DNA from: Salipiger pallidus
Lineage (GTDB): Bacteria; Pseudomonadota; Alphaproteobacteria; Rhodobacterales; Rhodobacteraceae
Assembly (NCBI RefSeq): GCF_014643635.1
Contig: NZ_BMJV01000001.1
Location: 682,001-746,000 of the forward strand
DNA length: 64,000 nt
Direction of reading: 5' to 3'
Numbering within the stretch: the first letter of the stretch is position 1; the number at the start of each line of letters is the position of its first letter. The notes under the pieces were generated by a model. It worked only from the letters and a program-made list of their open reading frames with translations, had not been told where the DNA came from and did no database searches. Positions 49,410-61,317 of the stretch are shown here, piece by piece. Position numbers and translations under genes: made by a program.

Positions 49410-49575
49410 ACACACGAACCAGGGGACGCCGCGTTTTCGGCTTTCAGAAGAAAAGTCTAGCGCGGCACAACAAGAAAAAAAGAGCGGCTCAATTCCTGAC
49501 GCCCCGGTCATCGGGACGACTGCATCGGTGTGCGCCGATGAAATAGAGCGGCTCAAACAAGGGAAGCGATCCGAC

Positions 49576-50865
49576 ATGATCAAGACACTCAAGCTTTCGG
49601 GCGTTGCTGCCATTGCCCTCGTCGCGGCCGGTGCCGCGCAGGCACAGGACGCCGACTGCCCGATCAAGGTGGGCGTGCTGCATTCGCTCTCCGGCACCAT
49701 GGCAATTTCCGAGACCACTCTGAAAGATACCATGCTGATGTTGATCGAAACGCAGAACGAGGCAGGCGGCCTTCTGGGCTGCGAGCTCGAGGCAGTGGTC
49801 AAGGACCCGGCCTCCGACTGGCCGATGTTTGCGGAGAAAGCGCGCGAGCTGGTCTCGAACGACGAGGTCGACGTGACCTTCGGCAGCTGGACCTCGGCGT
49901 CGCGCAAAGCGGTGCTGCCGGTTCTGGAAGAGCTGAACGCGCTCTATTTCTACCCCGTACAGTACGAGGGCGAGGAGTCGTCCAAGAACGTCTTCTACAC
50001 CGGCGCCGCGCCGAACCAGCAGGCGATCCCGGCCACCGACTATTTCCTAGAGGAACTGGGCGTCGAGAAGTTCGCGCTTCTGGGCACCGACTACGTGTAC
50101 CCGCGCACCACGAACAACATCCTCGAAAGCTATCTTGAGTCCAAGGGCATCGCCAAGGAAGACATCTTCGTCAACTACACCCCCTTCGGTCACTCCGACT
50201 GGTCGACCATCGTGTCGGACGTCGTGGCGCTGGGTGAGGACGGCAAGCAGGTTGGCGTCATCTCGACCATCAACGGCGACGCCAACATCGGCTTCTACAA
50301 GGAACTCGCCGCGCAGGGCGTATCGGCGGACGACATCCCTGTCGTGGCGTTTTCGGTGGGTGAAGAGGAACTTTCGGGGCTCGACACCTCGAACCTCGTG
50401 GGCCACCTCGCGGCCTGGAACTACTTCATGACCGCGGAATCCGAAGCCAACGACGAATTCATCGCTGCATGGCACGCGTTCATCGGCGACGACGCGCGCG
50501 TCACAAACGACCCGATGGAAGCGCATTACATCGGCTTCAACATGTGGGTGAACGCCGTGACCGACGCGGGCACCACCGACGTGGACGCCGTGCGTGAAGC
50601 CATGTGGGGCCAGGAGTTCCCGAACCTCACCGGCGGCACCGCGGTCATGGGCACCAACCACCACCTCAGCAAGCCGGTTCTGATTGGTGAGATCCGCGAA
50701 GACGGCATGTTCGACATCATCTCAGAAACTGATCCGGTTCCCGGAGATGCATGGACCGACTTCCTGCCGGATTCCGCCGTCCTGACCTCGGACTGGCAGG
50801 AGCTTGAGTGCGGCATGTACAACACCGAGACCTCGACCTGCGTGCAGATCAAGTCCAACTATTGA
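49576..50865 (+). CDS. urtA: Urea ABC transporter substrate-binding protein
   Basis: UrtA (429 aa) is the periplasmic urea receptor. Signal peptide: MIKTLKLSGVAAIALVAAGA, cleavage near AQA. The mature protein begins DADCPIKVGVLHSLSGTMAI, the UrtA signature, then VEYEGEES-type text (here PVQYEGEESSKNVFYTGAAP) and YVYPRTTNNILESYL. The tail has two cysteines. It is the first gene of urtABCDE; the nitrogen-limitation response usual for such genes is an inference. Its leader is unusually long and structured. Confidence 0.96.
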   Translation: MIKTLKLSGVAAIALVAAGAAQAQDADCPIKVGVLHSLSGTMAISETTLKDTMLMLIETQNEAGGLLGCELEAVVKDPASDWPMFAEKARELVSNDEVDVTFGSWTSASRKAVLPVLEELNALYFYPVQYEGEESSKNVFYTGAAPNQQAIPATDYFLEELGVEKFALLGTDYVYPRTTNNILESYLESKGIAKEDIFVNYTPFGHSDWSTIVSDVVALGEDGKQVGVISTINGDANIGFYKELAAQGVSADDIPVVAFSVGEEELSGLDTSNLVGHLAAWNYFMTAESEANDEFIAAWHAFIGDDARVTNDPMEAHYIGFNMWVNAVTDAGTTDVDAVREAMWGQEFPNLTGGTAVMGTNHHLSKPVLIGEIREDGMFDIISETDPVPGDAWTDFLPDSAVLTSDWQELECGMYNTETSTCVQIKSNY

Positions 50866-51004
50866 TCGGACCTACCGGGACCGGGGCGTGACCTCCCCGG
50901 TTCCACTCCAGTCCATCACCAAGCCCATCGAGTGCATCGCCGCGGACACCTTTGCCGTGCCCGCGGCGTCCTCCCCTCCTCAAGACTTTCAGACAAGGCT
51001 AGCC

Positions 51005-52966
51005 ATGCTGCGTGCGCTATTTCCGGCCCTCGCGCTGACCTTGTGTCTCTGCCTGCCTTCCGGCAAGGCGGCGGCACAGGATCAGCGAGACCTCCAGTCG
51101 ATCCTGCAAACCGAAGCCGAAGAGGTGGCCAGTCCCGGCCGCCGCAGCGTGGGGTCGGTGATTGACGCGCTGGTCGCCTCCGAGCTGCCTCAGGCGCCGG
51201 AATTCCTGCAACGCTGGTCCGAACGCGAGGTGCTGCAGCGCACCACCGACGGGCTGTTCTTCTACGGCACCCGCGAGGGCGACAGCTACGCGCTGACCGA
51301 CCTGTCCACCGGTGAACCGGCGGGCAGCGCGCCTGCCTCCGAGATCGAGGAAATCCGTCCCAACGGTGGTGTCCGCCGGGTGATCGCCTCGGCGCTGGTG
51401 CAGTTCCAGCTGTCGGACCCGATTGAGGCGCGGCGCATAGAGGCGCTGGACTCCATCGCCCGCAACCCCTCCGCCGACCAGCTCGAGCCGCTGCTTGCCT
51501 CGATCGAGGACGAACCCAGCCCCCGCATCCGCGCCCGCAAGGAAGAACTTGCGGGGATGCTTGCCGCCACCTTCGGCGACACCCCCGAAGAGCGCATCGC
51601 GGCGATCTCGGCCCTGTCGGACGGTGTGTCGGTGCAGATCCGTGCGGTATTGAACCAGATCCTGTCCACTCGATCCGAAGTCGGCACCGAGATCCCCGAA
51701 GGCACCAACATCGCCCGCGAACTGACCCCGGGCGACGATCTGACCCGCGACGACGCCTACGCCCGCCTCGTGTCCGAGGATCTCGCCCCCGAGATCCAGT
51801 CCCGCGATCAGCTCAAGGCCGCCCTCACCGCCAACATCGACGGCGGCACCGTGGGCGGCGTGCCCATCGGCGCGCTTGATACCGAAGAGGCCCGCGCCCG
51901 CGCCTACGAGACGCTGGCCGCCGCTGGCACCATACCGCGGCTTGTCACCGAGGAAGACGTAGACGCGGCGCTCGCCAGCCACGTCTTCTTCGAGGCCTAC
52001 GACGAGGACGACCCCGCCATCACCGACGCCGCCCGCGCCGCCCTGAACGAGGTGGAGACCCGCGTTGCCGTTCACCAGGTGGCAGACCTAGCGCTGGACG
52101 CGGTGTCGCTGGCGTCGATCTACTTCCTCGCGGCCATTGGACTTGCCATCACCTTTGGCGTGATGGGTGTCATCAACATGGCCCACGGCGAATTCATCAT
52201 GATGGGCGCCTACACCGGCTACGTTGTACAGCAGATCATCCCCGATTACACGGTGTCTCTGATCGTCGCCCTGCCGCTGGCCTTCGCGGTGACCTTCGCC
52301 GCAGGCGTCGCGATGGAGCGGCTGGTGATCCGCTGGCTCTACCATCGCCCGCTGGAAACCCTGCTGGCAACCTTCGGCATCTCCATCGCCCTGCAACAGC
52401 TGGCCAAGAACATCTTCGGCACACAGGCGCGTCCCCTCACCTCGCCCTCGTGGCTCGAAGGGGCATGGGTGGTAAACGACGTGATCGGTATCGCCAACAT
52501 CCGCATCGCGATCTTCGTGCTGGCGCTGATCTTCCTCGCGCTGATCCTATTCATCCTCAAGCGCACCCGCGTGGGGCTAGAGGTTCGCGCGGTCACCCAG
52601 AACCCCGGCATGGCCGCCTCCATGGGCATCAACCCAGAGCGCATCAACATGCTGACCTTCGGCCTCGGCTCGGGCATCGCGGGCATCGCCGGCGTAGCGA
52701 TCGGCCTCTACGCGCAGGTCACCTCGGAAATGGGCGCCAACTACATCGTTCAAAGCTTCATGACCGTGGTCGTGGGCGGCGTCGGGAACGTCTGGGGCAC
52801 CCTCGCGGGAGCCAGCCTCATCGGCGTGCTGCAGAAGGGCATCGAATGGATGAACCCATCCAACACGCTCGCGGCGCAGACCTACATGATCCTCTTCATC
52901 ATCCTCTTCATCCAGGTCCGTCCCAAGGGCATCGTCGCCCTCAAGGGCCGCGCTGCGGGGGATTGA
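51005..52966 (+). CDS. urtB: Urea ABC transporter permease UrtB
   Basis: UrtB (653 aa). A signal peptide (MLRALFPALALTLCLCLPSG) is followed by a ~340-residue extracytoplasmic region with HEAT-like helices (ADQLEPLLASIEDEPSPRIR), normal for UrtB, and then a LIV-H type permease domain from ~365 (ASIYFLAAIGLAITFGVMGV, NMAHGEFIMMGAYTGYVVQQ and the coupling loop RTRVGLEVRAVTQNPGMAAS). It ends with VRPKGIVALKGRAAGD. It lies 139 bp after urtA. A repeat element (53024) separates it from urtC. Confidence 0.95.
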   Translation: MLRALFPALALTLCLCLPSGKAAAQDQRDLQSILQTEAEEVASPGRRSVGSVIDALVASELPQAPEFLQRWSEREVLQRTTDGLFFYGTREGDSYALTDLSTGEPAGSAPASEIEEIRPNGGVRRVIASALVQFQLSDPIEARRIEALDSIARNPSADQLEPLLASIEDEPSPRIRARKEELAGMLAATFGDTPEERIAAISALSDGVSVQIRAVLNQILSTRSEVGTEIPEGTNIARELTPGDDLTRDDAYARLVSEDLAPEIQSRDQLKAALTANIDGGTVGGVPIGALDTEEARARAYETLAAAGTIPRLVTEEDVDAALASHVFFEAYDEDDPAITDAARAALNEVETRVAVHQVADLALDAVSLASIYFLAAIGLAITFGVMGVINMAHGEFIMMGAYTGYVVQQIIPDYTVSLIVALPLAFAVTFAAGVAMERLVIRWLYHRPLETLLATFGISIALQQLAKNIFGTQARPLTSPSWLEGAWVVNDVIGIANIRIAIFVLALIFLALILFILKRTRVGLEVRAVTQNPGMAASMGINPERINMLTFGLGSGIAGIAGVAIGLYAQVTSEMGANYIVQSFMTVVVGGVGNVWGTLAGASLIGVLQKGIEWMNPSNTLAAQTYMILFIILFIQVRPKGIVALKGRAAGD

Positions 52967-53023
52967 TCATGCTGCACGCCAAAGCACCGACCCCGGCCCC
53001 CGGCCCCACCGCTTCAACTGCCT

Positions 53024-53138
53024 CCGGCGGGGATATTTCGGGTCAAAGGAAAACACAGGCACACCGCTCCGTTTCCTTTGACCGCAAATATCCCGGGGGT
53101 AAGCGAGCCCCGGCTCGCGAAGGGGGCAGCGCCCCCTC
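53024..53138. repeat. Intergenic repeat, copy D (inverted pair)
   Basis: Two copies of the element face each other: 53031-53052 (GGATATTT-N2-GGTCAAAGGAAA) and its near-exact complement at 53072-53093, separated by 19 bp. A GGGGGCAGCGCCCCC hairpin follows at ~53122-53136. The long stem would sit in the urtBC transcript, ending 24 bp before the urtC start, and could lower urtC expression. Confidence 0.8.
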
Positions 53139-53162
53139 CCTGCCCGCCACCAGGAGAACCGC

Positions 53163-54407
53163 ATGACCCGCAAGACCTTCCTCACCGAGAACCGCTCCGT
53201 CTTCTGGTTTCTCCTGTCCCTTGGCGTCTTCGCGCTGATCATCACCGTTCTGGCCGACGGCAGCGGCAACGGGATGATTTCCACCAGCTTTGTCAAGACG
53301 CTGGGCCGCACGCTTTGCCTCATGCTGGTGGCCATCGCCATGGACGTGGTCTGGGGCTACACCGGAATCCTCAGCCTCGGGCACATGGCCTTCTTCGGGC
53401 TTGGTGGCTACATGATCGGCATGTGGCTTATGTATGCCCGCACCGAGATCGTGCTCACGGCCTCGCTCAATGCCGCGCCCATTCCTCCCACACCCGAAGA
53501 GATACACGACGCCATCGGCAGCCAGATCTTTGGCCTCGTGGGCAGTTCCGAGTTTCCCGCCATCTGGTATTTTGCCCCGAGCCTTCCGGCGCAGCTCGCG
53601 CTGGTGGTGCTGGTGCCCGGAGTGCTGGCACTGGTCTTTGGCTGGCTTGCCTTCCGCAGCCGGGTCACCGGCGTGTACCTGTCGATCCTCACGCAGGCCA
53701 TGACCCTCGCCCTGTCGCTCTACCTCTTCCAGAACGACAGTGGCCTGCGTGGCAACAACGGCCTATCGGGCCTGCAGAACATTCCCGGTCTCGGGGACGT
53801 GCCGCAATCGCACCTGTCCATCGCCTTTTTCTGGGCCTCGGCCGTGGCGCTGGGGGCGGGCTACGTGCTGTTTGCCTGGGTGGTCTCAGGCAAGATGGGT
53901 TCGGTCATCCGCGGCGTGCGCGACAATGAAAGCCGCGTGCGGTTCCTCGGATACCATGTGGAAAGCTACAAGCTTTTCATCTTCACCCTCACGGGCATCG
54001 TGTCGGGCATCGCCGGCGCGCTCTACTACCCGCAGGCTGGCATCATCAACCCGAACGAGATCGCGCCCATCGCCTCGATCTACCTCGCGGTCTGGGTCGC
54101 CATCGGCGGACGCGGACGGCTTTACGGGGCGGCCATCGGCGCCGCCGTGGTCTCGCTTCTGTCGAGCTGGTTCACCGGGGGCAGCGCGCCCGACGTGAAC
54201 CTCGGCATCTACACCATCCAATGGACCGACTGGTGGCTGGTCCTGCTGGGGCTCAGCTTCGTGGCGGTCACGCTTCTGGCACCCAAGGGCATCGGCGGGC
54301 TGTTCGACCTTATCGGAAACCGCCACCCCGTGCCCGCCACCAGCAGCACCGCCGCAGGACCCGATCTGGGCGCGCGCCGCACCGTCGAAGGAGAGGAAGA
54401 GAAATGA
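53163..54407 (+). CDS. urtC: Urea ABC transporter permease UrtC
   Basis: UrtC (414 aa) is the LIV-M type partner permease. Family text: MDVVWGYTGILSLGHMAFFG, GGYMIGMWLMY, FRSRVTGVYLSILTQAMTLA, GLSGLQNIPGLG and SVIRGVRDNESRVRFLGYHV, the ATPase-coupling loop. About nine helices can be counted. The ATG at 53163 follows AGGAGAACC. It overlaps urtD by 4 nt. Confidence 0.96.
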   Translation: MTRKTFLTENRSVFWFLLSLGVFALIITVLADGSGNGMISTSFVKTLGRTLCLMLVAIAMDVVWGYTGILSLGHMAFFGLGGYMIGMWLMYARTEIVLTASLNAAPIPPTPEEIHDAIGSQIFGLVGSSEFPAIWYFAPSLPAQLALVVLVPGVLALVFGWLAFRSRVTGVYLSILTQAMTLALSLYLFQNDSGLRGNNGLSGLQNIPGLGDVPQSHLSIAFFWASAVALGAGYVLFAWVVSGKMGSVIRGVRDNESRVRFLGYHVESYKLFIFTLTGIVSGIAGALYYPQAGIINPNEIAPIASIYLAVWVAIGGRGRLYGAAIGAAVVSLLSSWFTGGSAPDVNLGIYTIQWTDWWLVLLGLSFVAVTLLAPKGIGGLFDLIGNRHPVPATSSTAAGPDLGARRTVEGEEEK

Positions 54408-55144
54408 AGACCCTTCTCGAGATGTCCGGCGTCTCCGTCAGCTTCGACGGGTTCAAGGCGATCAACAACCTCTCCTTCCAGATCGGCGAGCCCGAACTGC
54501 GGGCCATCATCGGCCCCAACGGCGCGGGCAAGACCACCTTCATGGACATCATCACCGGCAAGACGCGGCCCGACAGCGGCACGGTGATCTACGGTGAGAA
54601 ATCCATCTCGCTGCTGAAGATGAGCGAAAGCCAGATCGCCATGGCCGGTGTCGGGCGCAAGTTCCAGAAGCCTACCGTCTTCGAGGCCCAGACCGTGCGC
54701 GAGAACCTCGCCATGGCGCTCAAGAACAGGCGCGGGCCGTTCGACGTGCTGCTCTACCGCAAGACCAGCCGCGGCGCCAAGCGCATCGAGGAGCTGGCCG
54801 AGACCATCGGCCTGACCGACGCCCTGCCCCGCATCGCGGGCGAGCTCAGCCATGGCCAGAAGCAATGGCTCGAGATTGGCATGCTGCTGGCGCAGGACCC
54901 GCGTCTTCTGCTGGTGGACGAGCCCGCCGCAGGCATGACCCCGGCCGAGCGCGAACACACCACGGATCTGCTGAAACGCGCCGCCAAGAAGCACGCCGTG
55001 GTGGTGGTCGAGCATGACATGGAGTTCATACGAAGGCTTGATTGCCGGGTGACCGTACTCTGCGAAGGTTCGGTGCTGGCGGAAGGCTCGCTCGATCATG
55101 TCACCTCGGATCCACAGGTGATCGAAGTATATCTCGGGCGCTGA
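54404..55144 (+). CDS. urtD: Urea ABC transporter ATP-binding protein UrtD
   Basis: UrtD (246 aa): Walker A GPNGAGKTTFMDIITG, signature LSHGQKQWLEIGM, Walker B LLLVDEPAAGMTPAE and His in VVVVEHDMEFIRRL. FQKPTVFEAQTVRENLAMAL is specific to UrtD-like LivG proteins. It works as a heterodimer with UrtE. Starts 4 nt inside the end of urtC. A 73-bp gap with palindromes separates it from urtE. Confidence 0.96.
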   Translation: MKTLLEMSGVSVSFDGFKAINNLSFQIGEPELRAIIGPNGAGKTTFMDIITGKTRPDSGTVIYGEKSISLLKMSESQIAMAGVGRKFQKPTVFEAQTVRENLAMALKNRRGPFDVLLYRKTSRGAKRIEELAETIGLTDALPRIAGELSHGQKQWLEIGMLLAQDPRLLLVDEPAAGMTPAEREHTTDLLKRAAKKHAVVVVEHDMEFIRRLDCRVTVLCEGSVLAEGSLDHVTSDPQVIEVYLGR

Positions 55145-55160
55145 GCGTGGTGCCCGCCAA

Positions 55161-55176
55161 ATCTTTCGGGAAAGAT
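55161..55176. repeat. Short inverted repeat in the urtD-urtE gap
   Basis: ATCTTTC (55161-55167) and GAAAGAT (55170-55176), perfect 7-bp arms with a 2-bp spacer, directly next to the 24-bp palindrome. Confidence 0.7.
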
Positions 55177-55178
55177 AT

Positions 55179-55202
55179 GCAAATTCCTTGCAAGGAATTT
55201 GC
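55179..55202. promoter_or_regulatory. Perfect 24-bp palindrome between urtD and urtE
   Basis: The 12-bp half GCAAATTCCTTG is followed directly by its exact reverse complement. With the neighbouring 16-bp inverted repeat it fills most of the 73-bp gap and ends 15 bp before the urtE start, overlapping the region just before its AAGGAG site. It could be an operator, an RNA processing stem, or a dispersed repeat. It has no T tract, so it is not a standard terminator. Confidence 0.7.
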
Positions 55203-55217
55203 CCAAGGAGACCGCCG

Positions 55218-55913
55218 ATGCTGCGCGTAGACAACCTTACCCTTCATTACGGCCAGAGCCAGATCCTGAACGGCATCTCGCTGACCGCGAAGCCTGGAGA
55301 GGTCACCGCCGTGACCGGCACCAACGGTGTGGGCAAGACCTCGTTGCTCAAGGCCATCGCTGGGCGTCACCCCTATTCGGGCGGCACCATCAGCCTCGAC
55401 GACCGGCCGCTCGATCACCTCAACGCCTACCAGGCGGGCCGCGCGGGCATCGCCTACGTGCCGCAGGGCCGCGAGGTCTTCCCCTTGATGACCGTGCAGG
55501 AAAACCTCGAGACCGGCTTTGCCTGCCTGCCGAAATCGGATCACAAGGTGCCCGAGCACATCTTTGATCTGTTCCCCATCCTCAAGGATTTCCTGCACCG
55601 CAGGGGCGGTGATCTTTCGGGCGGGCAACAGCAGCAGCTGGCCATCGCACGCGCGCTCATCATGCGCCCCCGCGTGCTTCTGCTCGACGAGCCGACCGAG
55701 GGCATCCAGCCAAACATCATCCAGCAGATTGGCCGGGTGATTGCCCAGCTGCGCGCCGATGGCGACATGGCGATCATCCTCGTGGAGCAGTATTTCGACT
55801 TCATGTGGGAGCTTGCGGACAATTTCGTCGCCGTGCAGCGCGGGTCGGTCGCCATGGAAGGCCGCGCCGGCGAGATCGACCGCGAGGCCCTGCTCGCCAA
55901 GGTCTCGATCTAG
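55218..55913 (+). CDS. urtE: Urea ABC transporter ATP-binding protein UrtE
   Basis: UrtE (231 aa): Walker A VTGTNGVGKTSLLKAIAGR, signature LSGGQQQQLAIARAL, Walker B VLLLDEPTEGIQPNII and AIILVEQYFDF. The Asn-Gly-Val variant of Walker A (usual GRNGVGKT) is still functional. The ATG at 55218 has AAGGAG upstream. It closes urtABCDE. No urease genes are in the window. Confidence 0.96.
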   Translation: MLRVDNLTLHYGQSQILNGISLTAKPGEVTAVTGTNGVGKTSLLKAIAGRHPYSGGTISLDDRPLDHLNAYQAGRAGIAYVPQGREVFPLMTVQENLETGFACLPKSDHKVPEHIFDLFPILKDFLHRRGGDLSGGQQQQLAIARALIMRPRVLLLDEPTEGIQPNIIQQIGRVIAQLRADGDMAIILVEQYFDFMWELADNFVAVQRGSVAMEGRAGEIDREALLAKVSI

Positions 55914-56280: not shown

Positions 56281-57630
56281 ATGAAGACGATCCGCACACC
56301 ACTGCTTGGCACGGTGGCCATGGGGCTGGCGCTCACCGCCTCTGCCGCCAGCGCCGAGACCATCCGTTTCTGGACCATCGAGGAACAGCCCGAGCGGCTG
56401 GCCCGCCAGCAGGCGATGGCCGACGCCTTCGAAGAGGAAAGCGGCCACACCGTCGAGGTCATCCCCGTCACCGAATCCGAGCTCGGCACCCGCGCCACCG
56501 CCGCCTATGCCGCCGGTGACATGCCCGACGTGATCTACCATCCGCTGTCCTACGCCCTGCCCTGGGCCGAGGCGGGCATCCTTGACCCTGACGCTGCCAT
56601 GGATGTGATCGAGGATCTGGGCGGTGCCACCTTCGCCCCCGGTGCCCTTGCCATGGCCGAGTTCGACGGCGGCTATGCGTCGGTGCCCGCTGATGGCTGG
56701 ACGCAGATGATCCTTTACCGTTCGGACCTCTTCGACGAGGCGGGGCTCGAGCCGCCGACCTCCTACGCCAACGTGGAAGCGGCCATCGAGGCGCTGCACA
56801 ACCCACCGGACATGTACGGTTTCGTCGCCGCCACCAAGGTGGACGAGTCGTTCATGAGCCAGGTGCTGGAGCATGTCTTCCTTGCCAATGGCGTCTCCCC
56901 CGTGGGGCCTGACGGCTTTGCCGAGCTGGACGAGGCCGCCACCACCGAGGTGCTCGAGTTCTACAAGACCCTGGCCGATGCCTCGCCTCCCGGGGATCTC
57001 TACTGGGACCAGTCGCGCACGCTCTATTTCTCGGGGAACGCGGCGATGGTGATCTGGTCACCCTTCATCCTCGATGAGCTTGCGGGACTGCGGGACAGCG
57101 CGCCGCCCACCATCAACGACGATCCCACCTCGGCAGAGCTGGCGTCGATGACCGGGATCGTGACCAACTTCGCGGGCCCGTCGAACCCCGATGGCGCGGC
57201 ATGGGCGGCGATCAACATGCTGGGCATCACCGGCGATGCCTCAACCGATGCGGCCATCGAGTTCGTCGAGTATTCCATGGACCAGGGCTATCTCGAGACG
57301 CTGGCCATTGCGCCCGAGGGCAAGTTTCCGGTGCGCCGGGGCACCGATGAGGACCCCGAGATGTTCGTCACCGAATGGGCCAAGCTGCCTGTGGGCGTCG
57401 ACCGCACCGCCCCCTTGGGCGATCTCTACCCGCAGGAGATGATCGACGAGATCGTCGCCGGCCTTGACGTGGCCCAGCGCTGGGGCGCCGAGGAAGGTCA
57501 GCTCGCGCTGGCGTCCAAGATGATCAACAGCCAGGCGGTCAACCGCATCGTGCGCGAATACATCGACGGCGGGATCGACGCCTCCGAGGCCGTGGCGCAG
57601 ATGAACGAGGAACTGGGCGCGCTGCAATAA
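56281..57630 (+). CDS. Carbohydrate ABC transporter substrate-binding protein
   Basis: A 449-residue family 1 extracellular solute-binding protein. Signal peptide: MKTIRTPLLGTVAMGLALTA, cleavage after ASA. The mature part begins ETIRFWTIEEQPERLARQQA, followed by FEEESGHTVEVIPVTESEL and AAYAAGDMPDVIYHPLSYAL. Substrate cannot be told; oligosaccharide or alpha-glucoside is likely from the company of two permeases and a MalK-type ATPase. The ATG follows an AGGAGACC site. It is rich in Asp/Glu, as is usual for a marine secreted protein. Confidence 0.92.
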   Translation: MKTIRTPLLGTVAMGLALTASAASAETIRFWTIEEQPERLARQQAMADAFEEESGHTVEVIPVTESELGTRATAAYAAGDMPDVIYHPLSYALPWAEAGILDPDAAMDVIEDLGGATFAPGALAMAEFDGGYASVPADGWTQMILYRSDLFDEAGLEPPTSYANVEAAIEALHNPPDMYGFVAATKVDESFMSQVLEHVFLANGVSPVGPDGFAELDEAATTEVLEFYKTLADASPPGDLYWDQSRTLYFSGNAAMVIWSPFILDELAGLRDSAPPTINDDPTSAELASMTGIVTNFAGPSNPDGAAWAAINMLGITGDASTDAAIEFVEYSMDQGYLETLAIAPEGKFPVRRGTDEDPEMFVTEWAKLPVGVDRTAPLGDLYPQEMIDEIVAGLDVAQRWGAEEGQLALASKMINSQAVNRIVREYIDGGIDASEAVAQMNEELGALQ

Positions 57631-57714: not shown

Positions 57715-58965
57715 ATGAGCACAGCCATTCCCCCCACCGGCAGAGGCCCCCTTGCCCGGCGCGAGGCGCGGCTGGCTTGGGGTCTTCTTCTCCCGACCCT
57801 GACGGCGGTGTCTCTGGTGGTGATCCTGCCGCTGCTTGCGGTGTTCTGGATCGCGTTCAAGCCCGTGGGGCTGGCCGAGCTGCGCCCGCCCACGATCATG
57901 GCCCGCGAGGACGTGCGCGGCGGCCCCGAAGCCCCCGGCGACGAGGCCACCCTGCGCTACCGGCTGCGCAATTCCTCTCAGGATCAGCAGATCCGGGGCG
58001 TGACGCTGACCGACGCCTGGCCCGAGGGGGTGACGCTCGTCGATCCAGGCGCTCTGAACCCGGCCTGCGAGATCACCGATGGCCGCCTGATGTGCGACTT
58101 CGGCGACTGGGAGGGCGGCGCGCGCGAGACGCTTGCTATCGACGTGACCGTGGATCAGGCGTTCCTCGACGCCCCTGATCCTTCTGACAGCGCGCCGGTC
58201 ATCACCGGAGATGGCGACAACGTGCTGACCAACCTTGAGTTCACCTTCGAGAACTTCGCGCAGATCTTCAACGGCTCGGAGTTCTGGGGCGTGCTGGGCG
58301 TGACGCTGTTCTACACGGTCTTTGGCACGCTGGGCGCGCTGGTGATGGGGCTGTTCGCGGCGCTACTGCTCAACAAGTCGTTCCGGGGACAGGGCGTTTT
58401 GCGGGGGCTCTACCTTTTCCCTTACGTGGCGCCGGTGATTGCCGTGGCGTTTGCGTGGGTCCTGCTGTTCGATCCGTTCTCGGGGTCGATGAACGCGCTG
58501 CTGATCCAGATGGGGGTGACCTCGGAGGCGATCAACTTCTTCGGGGAGCGCCCGCTTGCGCTCATCATGGTGACGCTGTTCGAGATTTGGCGCTACTTCC
58601 CGCTGTCCTTCCTGTTCATCCTTGCGCGCATGCAGTCGATCGACACGGACATGTACGAGGCGGCGGACATGGACGGGGCATCGCCCTTTCAGAAGTTCCG
58701 CTTCCTGTCGCTGCCACAGCTGCTGGGCATCCTGTCGGTGCTGTTCCTGCTGCGCTTCATCTGGACCTTCAACAAGTTCGACGACATCTTCCTGCTGACG
58801 GGCGGCAACGCGGGCACGAGGGTGCTGACCGTGAACGTCTATGAGCAGGCCTTTGCGCTCTCGAACATCGGCGCAGGGGCGGCGGTGGCGGTGGTGATCT
58901 TCTGCTGCCTGTTGGTGTTCTCGGCCTTCTTCTTCAAGGTGATGAGCCGGGAGGAGGGGCTGTGA
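57715..58965 (+). CDS. Sugar ABC transporter permease with inserted DUF11-like domain
   Basis: A 416-residue MalF-type permease. Residues ~20-48 form the first helix (WGLLLPTLTAVSLVVILPLL). Then comes an insert of ~105 residues (~58-165) with a DUF11-like beta-sandwich pattern: ATLRYRLRNSSQ, GVTLTDAWPEGVTLVDPGAL, two cysteines (118 and 127) and ARETLAIDVTVDQ. The normal permease resumes at LTNLEFTFENFAQIF and contains the coupling helix EAADMDGASPFQKFRFLSLP. The insert would lie in the periplasm, near the binding protein. The ATG at 57715 is the first after the binding-protein gene. Confidence 0.9.
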   Translation: MSTAIPPTGRGPLARREARLAWGLLLPTLTAVSLVVILPLLAVFWIAFKPVGLAELRPPTIMAREDVRGGPEAPGDEATLRYRLRNSSQDQQIRGVTLTDAWPEGVTLVDPGALNPACEITDGRLMCDFGDWEGGARETLAIDVTVDQAFLDAPDPSDSAPVITGDGDNVLTNLEFTFENFAQIFNGSEFWGVLGVTLFYTVFGTLGALVMGLFAALLLNKSFRGQGVLRGLYLFPYVAPVIAVAFAWVLLFDPFSGSMNALLIQMGVTSEAINFFGERPLALIMVTLFEIWRYFPLSFLFILARMQSIDTDMYEAADMDGASPFQKFRFLSLPQLLGILSVLFLLRFIWTFNKFDDIFLLTGGNAGTRVLTVNVYEQAFALSNIGAGAAVAVVIFCCLLVFSAFFFKVMSREEGL

Positions 58966-59062: not shown

Positions 59063-60265
59063 ATGAAGGCGGCATGGAACGGGTATGTGACCGCGCCGGT
59101 GATCGGGGCGCTCTGGTGCGCGGTGATCGCGGTGACCGTGGCGGTGGCCATGAGCTTTGCCACAGGGGCGCCGTTCCGACCGTCCTGGCTGGCGCTGTCT
59201 TGGGGGGCGGCGGCGGGGTTTTCGGCGCTTTATGGCGCGCTGGTGCTTTGGGGCGCGGCGGCGGCCTTGCTGGTGGCGGGGCTCTTGGGCTTTGGGCCAA
59301 TGCTGTCGGGGGACGGCGCGGGGCTGGCCGCGCAGCTGGTGGGGCATGGGGGCGTTGCCCTGTTCACCGCGCTGGGGCTTGCCAAGATGTGCGAGGAGCT
59401 GCGACCCGGACCTGCGACGCGCCACGAGTTCGAGGAGGCGGTGATCCGGTTCCTCACCGGATTTGGCTACATCTTTTTTACCGCCATTGTGGTCATTCCT
59501 TTCTATGTCATGGTGATGACCAGCCTGAAGAACCAGGCGGCGCTGATGGCGAACCCGCTGGATTTCTCGCTGGACCTCACGCGGCGCTGGCATCTGTTCG
59601 ACAGCTACGTGGAACTGCTCACGCAGTATAATTTCGGCAGCTACCTGTGGACCAGCTTCTATGTGTCGGTGCTGACTGTGGTCATCACGCTGGCCTTCGC
59701 CATCCCCGGCGCCTATGCCGTGGCGCGGCTGCGGTTCCGGGGGCAGGCGCTGATGTCGCGCTCGGTGCTGCTGATCTACATGGTGCCGATGATCGTGCTC
59801 GCGCTGCCGATCTACATCGCGTTCTCCATGGCGGGGCTGCGCAACACCATCTTCGGGATCGTCCTGATCTATCCGGTGACCACCATTCCCGTCGCACTTT
59901 ACATGCTGCAGGGCTATTTCCGGGGCCTGCCCGCCGAAATCGAGGAGGCGGGGCTCATGGACGGGCTGAGCCGGCTCAAGGTGATCTGGAAGATCACCCT
60001 GCCGCTGAGCCTTCCGGCGCTGGCGAGCGTGTCGCTTTACGTCTTCATGATCGCCTGGAACGAGTTCCTGCTGGCCTTCATGCTGCTGGACGATCCGGGC
60101 AAGTTCACCCTGACGCGGGGGATCGCGTCGCTCAACAGCTCGGAGGTGCCCCGGCAGCATCTGATGGCGGGGGCGGTGATCGCCACAGTGCCGATCATGG
60201 CGATCTTCCTCGGGCTGGAGCGGTTCATGACCAAGGGGCTGACCGCAGGCTCGGTCAAGGGATAA
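59063..60265 (+). CDS. Sugar ABC transporter permease with N-terminal membrane extension
   Basis: A 400-residue MalG-type permease. The standard part begins near residue 130 (FGYIFFTAIVVIPFYVMVMT) and includes SLYVFMIAWNEFLLAFMLL and the coupling motif EIEEAGLMDGLSRLKVIWKI. Before it lie ~125 extra residues with about three hydrophobic helices (IGALWCAVIAVTVAVAMSFA, then FSALYGALVLWGAAAALLVA) and Gly/Ala-rich text. Typical MalG proteins have ~280-300 residues. It forms the importer with the previous permease. The ATG at 59063 follows copy E of the repeat. Confidence 0.9.
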   Translation: MKAAWNGYVTAPVIGALWCAVIAVTVAVAMSFATGAPFRPSWLALSWGAAAGFSALYGALVLWGAAAALLVAGLLGFGPMLSGDGAGLAAQLVGHGGVALFTALGLAKMCEELRPGPATRHEFEEAVIRFLTGFGYIFFTAIVVIPFYVMVMTSLKNQAALMANPLDFSLDLTRRWHLFDSYVELLTQYNFGSYLWTSFYVSVLTVVITLAFAIPGAYAVARLRFRGQALMSRSVLLIYMVPMIVLALPIYIAFSMAGLRNTIFGIVLIYPVTTIPVALYMLQGYFRGLPAEIEEAGLMDGLSRLKVIWKITLPLSLPALASVSLYVFMIAWNEFLLAFMLLDDPGKFTLTRGIASLNSSEVPRQHLMAGAVIATVPIMAIFLGLERFMTKGLTAGSVKG

Positions 60266-60294: not shown

Positions 60295-61317
60295 ATGGCA
60301 AGCATAGAATTGAAATCCGTCGAGAAATGGTTCGGCGAGGCGCAGGTCATCAAGGGCGTCGACCTTGTCATCGAGGAAGGTGAGTTCGTCATCTTCGTCG
60401 GCCCCTCTGGCTGCGGGAAATCGACGCTTCTGCGGATGATCGCGGGGCTCGAGGAAACCTCGCGCGGGCAGATCCTGATCGGCGGCCGCGACGCCACTGC
60501 CGAGCCGCCCGCCCGGCGCGGGCTGGCCATGGTGTTCCAGAGCTACGCGCTTTATCCGCACATGTCGGTTCGCGACAACATGGGGTTCTCGCTCAAGGCG
60601 GCGGGCGTGCCGAAGCCCGAGATGGACGCCAAGGTGGACGAGGCGGCGCGGGTGCTGAAGCTCGAGCCGCTACTGGACCGGCGGCCCAAGGATCTGAGCG
60701 GCGGGCAGCGCCAGAGGGTCGCCATCGGGCGGTCCATCGTGCGCGACCCCACCGCGTTCCTCTTTGACGAGCCTTTGTCGAACCTCGATGCCGCACTGCG
60801 GGTCGAGATGCGCTACGAGATCGCCAAACTCCACCAGTCGCTGAAATCCACGATGATCTACGTCACCCACGACCAGGTTGAGGCGATGACGCTGGCCGAC
60901 CGGATCGTGGTGCTCGAGGCGGGGCGGGTGAGCCAGGTGGGCAGCCCGCGCGAGCTTTATGAGCGTCCCGGCAACCTTTTCGTGGCGCAGTTCATCGGCA
61001 GCCCCAAGATGAACGTCTTTGCCGTGGCGACGGACGGCCTTCGGGTCGGCGGCCTGCCCGGCGAGGCGGACAGCTTCGGCATCCGGCCCGAGCACATCGC
61101 GCTGGTTGCGCCCGGGGAGGGGCACATGGACGGCACGGTGGACGTGCTCGAGTACCTCGGGGCGGATACCTATGTCATCGTGGATTGCGGCGATGCCGGC
61201 AAGCTGACCGTGCGGGCGCAGGGCGACACCGGAATGCGCCCCGGCGCGGCGGTGGGGCTGCGGTTCGAGGACGGCCAGACCCACCTTTTCGACAAGGCGG
61301 GGCTGGCGATACGCTAG
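60295..61317 (+). CDS. Sugar ABC transporter ATP-binding protein, MalK/UgpC type
   Basis: A 340-residue ATPase: Walker [18 protein letters not shown] loop [13 protein letters not shown], signature [19 protein letters not shown], Walker [14 protein letters not shown] loop [13 protein letters not shown]. The C-terminal TOBE-type domain ([11 protein letters not shown]) is present and shorter than in E. coli MalK. It energises the preceding permeases; it could serve other importers as MsmK-like proteins do. It begins 29 bp after the second permease. Confidence 0.94.

Follow-up and report, generated by a model that had tools for sequence, protein, structure and literature searches.

Introduction

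In the maltose importer, the P2 domain of MalF is a textbook feature. Most importers related to it nevertheless do without such a domain, and the reason for its presence is debated. P2 reportedly interacts with MalE throughout the transport cycle and is said to communicate substrate availability. The P2 region (residues 91-271 of MalF) touches MalE, with residues 240-249 in direct contact (PMC3150292). The DUF11 domain, in turn, is mostly described as a stalk domain in the study that presents a crystallised example, 9IFR, and that renames the domain CLIPPER (PMC12617251). In 9IFR an isopeptide bond involves Lys715, Asp748 and Asn806, and the same text notes that this bond is absent from some DUF11 domains (PMC12617251).

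Here we describe an ABC sugar permease, subunit F of an importer of Salipiger pallidus, in which a DUF11 domain separates the first helix from the conserved core. The gene lies in the window, i.e. the whole stretch of 64,000 nucleotides that was analysed. The parts of the protein are of known kinds, and what is new is their combination, a DUF11 domain in the permease of an importer; within the open-licence literature, in so far as its text was available, no paper on DUF11 in a permease was found (DUF11 papers PMC12282271, PMC12617251 and PMC9210967).

The importer operon

F is encoded in an operon (Table 1) that contains a permease pair, a binding protein and a MalK/UgpC-type ATPase, and is thus a type I (MalFGK-like) carbohydrate ABC importer. 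Where enough upstream sequence is available (73 loci), a LacI regulator is found 56 times. In the window, a urea-type ABC transporter gene set, whose genes we take to be urt-like, is located directly upstream of the operon (49528-55913). This adjoining transporter (~49.5-55.9 kb) was considered as a functional partner and set aside, since urtD is present in just 15 of the 73 loci with upstream room, so that it is probably a mere neighbour. In Pseudooceanicola antarcticus, a 790-aa frame just downstream of the operon (L058 10841-13213, minus strand) shows, by eye, repeated Ig-like segments and a C-terminus with the look of an outer-membrane barrel.

Table 1. Features of the importer operon (positions in the window; residues are those of F)
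Feature	Position	Strand	Basis or occurrence
Periplasmic sugar-binding protein	56281..57630	+	SBP_bac_1/SBP_bac_8; 80/80 named loci
Permease subunit F (MalF-type, 416 aa), carries the DUF11 insert	57715..58965	+	ORF, Pfam
F first transmembrane helix (residues ~20-48)	57772..57858	+	Hydropathy peak 29-47; predicted helix 12-48; alignment to MalF 57-92
F insert (residues ~57-172), predicted DUF11/CLIPPER-fold beta-sandwich in the MalF-P2 slot	57883..58230	+	
Pfam DUF11 match within the F insert	57931-58167	+	Residues 73-151
C118 to C127 of the F insert	58066..58095	+	Neighbouring strands of a predicted hairpin
F BPD_transp_1 core	58339..58926	+	Pfam, residues 209-404
Permease subunit G (MalG-type, 400 aa)	59063..60265	+	79/80 named loci; the miss is a contig ending just after F
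G extra hydrophobic N-terminal block, ~120 aa	59063..59422	+	2-4 additional helices by hydropathy (number varies among orthologs)
ATPase subunit K (UgpC/MalK type)	60295..61317	+	NF008653, 447 bits, cut-off 432; 78/80 named loci, misses on short contigs

Identity and predicted fold of the insert

A first-pass annotation had described F as an ABC sugar permease with a DUF11-like domain after its first helix, and this description stands. Pfam assigns BPD_transp_1 to residues 209-404 (E 3e-14) and DUF11 (PF01345) to residues 73-151 with a score barely above the cut-off (E 2.2e-5; 25.2 bits against 24.6), while DUF7933 scored under its family cut-off on F. The DUF11 motifs and the two cysteines quoted in that annotation are present, the latter being C118 and C127, and the insert is placed as had been proposed, with an extent of ~57-172 in place of ~58-165. 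Scanned singly, 64 of the 66 aligned orthologs match DUF11 at E up to 1. A profile of the insert, run against 398 genomes of the phylum, scored above 100 bits in permease-size frames of 16 genomes, all from one class, and also gave weaker matches to long frames (1006-3202 aa; E 1.3e-7 to 5e-4), of which two were matched three and five times. Since these long frames with repeated copies resemble DUF11 surface proteins as portrayed in the literature (PMC12617251), the assignment holds in both directions, and on sequence grounds the insert belongs to the DUF11 type. Chance or mis-annotation is ruled out, as frame, domain and cysteines are kept in other genomes besides the 80 named loci. Two shorter frames of the phylum, of 235 and 401 aa, were matched by the profile as well, and the 235-aa frame (L222) reached an E-value of 5e-10. 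In a sequence search of the profile against solved structures 9ifr was absent, and the sole match, to YicC nucleases at E 0.36, was taken as chance.

Modelled alone with AlphaFold2 and 66 sequences, the insert is beta-rich, with eight strands of at least three residues and a pLDDT of 88.4. A Foldseek comparison of this model with the PDB consistently pointed to Ig-like and carbohydrate-binding folds, although the matches were weak, with E up to 0.001 in 7 of the 1530 rows. 9ifr ranked second by E-value (E 4.7e-4; TM 0.60/0.60; 16% identity; rmsd 4.7) and had the best TM-score by both lengths among the best 50 of the 1530 rows. The structural match anticipated by the first-pass annotation is found in that the predicted fold agrees with this solved DUF11 domain, and the insert is well predicted by the model to be an Ig-like beta-sandwich as in 9ifr. 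The model of full-length F was poor (pLDDT 64.7) and gives nothing on the orientation of the insert.

The insert of the window contains no lysine, and in every column of the alignment lysine is limited to 20 of the 106 rows at most, so that a Lys-Asn isopeptide bond is not conserved. Cys118 and Cys127, on the other hand, are both kept in 106 of 106 distinct insert sequences, and a C118-C127 disulfide in the periplasm naturally suggests itself in place of the isopeptide bond.

Position in the slot of MalF-P2

Residues 176-367 of F align to residues 268-453 of E. coli MalF (phmmer, 63.7 bits) and residues 13-49 to MalF 57-92 (2.9 bits, weak alone), while Pfam places MalF_P2 (PF14785) at residues 100-260 of MalF, so that the insert lies in the slot of P2. 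Its position after the first core helix and before the second is well predicted from these alignments, and the topology of the permease suggests that it faces the periplasm. F had earlier been called a normal MalF-type permease, which is loose wording, since E. coli MalF itself carries MalF_P2 in the same loop. The slot of MalF-P2 had been missed at that stage, and with it the fact that a periplasmic domain in the F loop has a known precedent.

Homology to MalF-P2 by sequence is ruled out: hhalign against MalF gave a probability of 0.1, and PF14785 was not matched up to E 1. MalF was also absent from the best 50 of the 1530 Foldseek rows for the insert model. A deep structural kinship of the two Ig-like folds is conceivable.

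Distribution and constraint of the insert

All 80 named loci, kept of at least 574 relatives, match F across the insert with 71-82% identity. In a survey of the order the insert was matched in 78 of 292 genomes, and 75 of these matches lie in frames between 412 and 603 aa long. Of the remaining three, one falls in a frame of 173 aa, one in a frame of 2617 aa and one in a frame interrupted by stops. A survey of the class with the insert profile found it in 10 of 385 genomes. As most of the 106 insert sequences were obtained with insert-containing queries, a core-only query is the fairer test; with up to seven candidates scored per genome, the listed matches that reach 53% identity or more all come from the same 10 genomes of the class, the other listed matches being at 41% or below, and all 10 of these genomes with an F ortholog have the insert. 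A MAG labelled Thiotrichales (L052) contains a copy of the operon that is Rhodobacteraceae-like, with F 75% identical, and is perhaps mis-binned.

In 66 rows sampled from the fetched homologs, the gap between helix 1 and the core measures 111-124 residues in all 34 rows with the insert, while the loops of the other 32 homologs all have 7-20 residues, and in the genome of the window DUF11 occurs at one place as against 90 places with BPD_transp_1. The insert is thus not shared by nearly all MalF-type permeases, which the first-pass annotation had named as the finding that would speak against its reading, and is universal only inside its own ortholog clade, as sampled. In a tree built from the core alone (56 rows, of which 23 carry the insert), the distribution of the insert requires a single change (support 98/88), and the nearest insert-less row is Nonomuraea, an actinobacterium (100/95); several long branches elsewhere in this tree are uncertain. 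From the sampled tree, the insert seems to have been gained once and then retained in a marine bacterial lineage.

The insert is more variable than the core. Mean identity to F of the window is 54% for the insert (residues 56-165) and 90% for the core (196-404) over 100 rows that include duplicates, and among the insert, the core and the binding protein, the insert evolves fastest, with a median dN/dS of 0.43 (0.04-1.20, so that some pairs lie above 1) as compared to 0.15 and 0.18, respectively (983 non-independent pairs). A rate about three times that of the core, together with the existence of related importers that lack the insert, would suit a neutral passenger that became fixed on one occasion and has been tolerated since. 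However, the median dN/dS of the insert is below 1, the insert is missing from none of the 106 distinct sequences, which all keep both cysteines, R57, N86 and S88, and in Alphaproteobacteria it is kept down to 44% identity of F, to which the uniform result of the core-only query adds; we regard a passenger as improbable. L53, R57, N86, S88 and both cysteines are unchanged in 105 of the 105 rows tallied, and judged by these patterns the insert is under selection, though loosely apart from its fixed points.

Possible roles of the insert

Docking, substrate capture and wall contact had been put forward earlier as roles of the insert. The precedent of MalF-P2 in the same slot makes docking the best of these three ideas, and by analogy we infer that the insert most likely docks the binding protein or couples it to transport. 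With about even confidence, we propose that a DUF11 module inserted into an importer of the glucosylglycerate/mannosylglycerate type works on the binding protein as MalF-P2 does. A single DUF11/CLIPPER Ig-like domain would have entered the loop between helices 1 and 2 of F on one occasion; it would hang in the periplasm, held by the C118-C127 disulfide rather than by a Lys-Asn isopeptide bond; and it would do the job of P2, touching the binding protein and helping to relay the “loaded” state to the membrane subunits. Importers of the SugA type and that of Nonomuraea, which lack the insert, presumably transport, so that the insert is not generally required.

Correlations of evolutionary distances are divided over the partner of the insert. 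After removal of rows in which any part had over 20% gaps (105 to 99), it was the binding protein that the insert followed most closely when raw distances were used (partial r 0.35, with 0 of 500 permutations as high), whereas on ranks G was slightly above the binding protein (partial 0.28 vs 0.26). In the 76 named loci, K came out above the binding protein (0.36 vs 0.18), although K, a cytoplasmic ATPase, should not touch the insert, and G showed no partial correlation (-0.03 raw, 0.01 on ranks). The ranked values for the 99 rows are in line with another role, in which the insert is a structural brace, either steadying the heterodimer of F and G or leaning on the additional helices at the N-terminus of G, with no direct part in docking. 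The insert of F and the N-terminal block of G do occur together: the block is present in 103 of 104 orthologs, the one miss being a frame split in two, and is missing from the three other MalG-type subunits compared, those of Nonomuraea and Haladaptatus and E. coli MalG. This co-occurrence may, however, reflect shared ancestry only. Furthermore, the block is very loose in sequence, almost free to vary (mean distance 1.5), its partial correlation with the insert is 0.01 (262 of 300 permutations as strong), and it is mainly hydrophobic and so probably lies in the membrane. Together with the null values for G in the named loci, this makes a brace unlikely in our view.

The resemblance of the insert fold to carbohydrate-binding modules and adhesin domains in the Foldseek comparison raises the alternative that the insert binds a ligand itself, be it by substrate capture in the periplasm, by binding a glycan or by contact with the envelope or wall. 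DUF11 is typical of surface adhesins, and the gain of binding by stalk domains has been raised as a question (PMC9210967). On the other hand, the domain is portrayed mainly as a stalk in PMC12617251. A binding protein is already present in 80 of 80 named operons, and most of the conserved residues of the insert look, by eye, like the core or linker of any DUF11 domain. One Ig-like domain alone is short, and the lone DUF11 copy gives no long reach; a reach to the wall or outer membrane was discarded for this reason. The suggestion of wall contact also finds nothing to lean on in the conserved neighbourhood, where no gene points to the wall. Direct ligand binding is accordingly improbable, and docking or coupling to the binding protein is retained as the preferred reading.

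Substrate of the importer

Most orthologous operons add a gene for a GH63 hydrolase with conserved contact residues, and the cargo call follows from this. GH63 is found in 64 of the 74 named loci with at least 4.5 kb downstream, in 18 of the 18 divergent order-level loci fetched (L141-L158) and in 6 of 7 class relatives (L172-L178; not L173). The operon GH63 matches PF22422 (E 2.5e-112) as well as TTHA0978 of T. thermophilus (2z07) and mycobacterial hydrolases (5ohc). Thirteen catalytic and substrate-contact residues are described as common to glucosylglycerate and mannosylglycerate hydrolases, including that of M. hassiacum (PMC6608630). By alignment, all 13 map onto the operon GH63, and they are kept in 89 of 91 orthologs. 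The cargo is thus probably glucosylglycerate or mannosylglycerate, an assignment that is good for the family as a whole and fair for the strain of the window, whose own genome contains no GH63, at the operon or elsewhere, which weakens the call for this strain.

In the operon of Paroceanicella, which is without GH63, an adjoining GH13 carries PYELN and TETN, the marks of glucosylglycerate phosphorylase according to PMC10608839. In the strain of the window, where neither GH63 nor GH13 lies beside the operon, a GH13 with both motifs is encoded on the same contig ~680 kb away (C1:694-2295). As a genus marker linked to the transporter this phosphorylase was rejected, since a homolog is present in 20 of 20 genomes of the genus, including some (G007, G010 and G016) without a listed F ortholog; both motifs were seen in 12 of the 20 in the stretches fetched.

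The Nonomuraea gerenzanensis relative of the operon (L227), with a binding protein 38% and an F core 46% identical, has no insert and a short G, and a GH63-like gene (34% identity) lies near its binding protein. Should this relative take up the same compound, transport of that substrate would not depend on the insert. Glucosylglycerate is described as a major compatible solute of Prochlorococcus NATL2A, for which genus a putative transporter gene is reported (PMC11631117). In the literature consulted, as far as its text was accessible (including PMC11631117, PMC10608839, PMC6608630 and PMC10130141), no proposal of a glucosylglycerate transporter for Rhodobacteraceae was found. An operon of the type in the window is a candidate glucosylglycerate importer in marine Rhodobacteraceae.

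The helix 1-helix 2 loop as a possible socket

Among 10 stretches from the genome of the window with other permeases, most of them with long frames, one contains a 418-aa permease (minus strand, C1:348500-352500), which we take to be of the AglG kind. It has ~160 extra residues in the loop between helices 1 and 2, and this stretch matches no Pfam family and does not resemble the DUF11 insert. Together with MalF-P2 and the DUF11 insert, the AglG-like stretch brings the occupants of this loop to three, all unrelated, and these few examples are suggestive of a socket. A tentative extension, to which we give somewhat less than even credence, is that the loop between helices 1 and 2 serves MalF/MalG-type permeases as a general socket, which took up unrelated periplasmic domains independently as docks or couplers, so that the pairing with the binding protein would evolve by domain swap. 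A second, sequence-unrelated Ig-like domain in the P2 slot would constitute an independent natural experiment on the purpose of the slot.

Comparison with known systems

The insert shares with MalF-P2 the same periplasmic loop and the nature of an extra periplasmic domain. MalF-P2, however, comprises ~160 residues, whereas the insert comprises ~116 residues with invariant cysteines and without sequence kinship to PF14785. Extra N-terminal helices are carried by MalF (MalF_N_TM) in E. coli, but by G in the operon of the window, where F has the extra domain and G the extra helices. By contrast, the closest solved permeases by F core sequence, SugA (8ja7; E 1e-26) and the related sugar permease 7cad (E 2.8e-27), are without the insert, and their alignment to F starts right at its end (F 178/180).

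For the cargo, the closest described enzymes are MhGgH (5ohc) and TTHA0978 (2z07), since the GH63 of most orthologous operons belongs to the same family and keeps the contact residues. For the insert itself, the closest solved system is the DUF11/CLIPPER domain 9ifr, which it resembles in its above-cut-off Pfam match and its predicted fold. DUF11/CLIPPER domains of adhesins act as a stalk, whereas the insert is a single copy within a membrane permease, and where these domains typically contain a Lys-Asn isopeptide bond, the insert of the window lacks lysine and is likely to form a disulfide instead.
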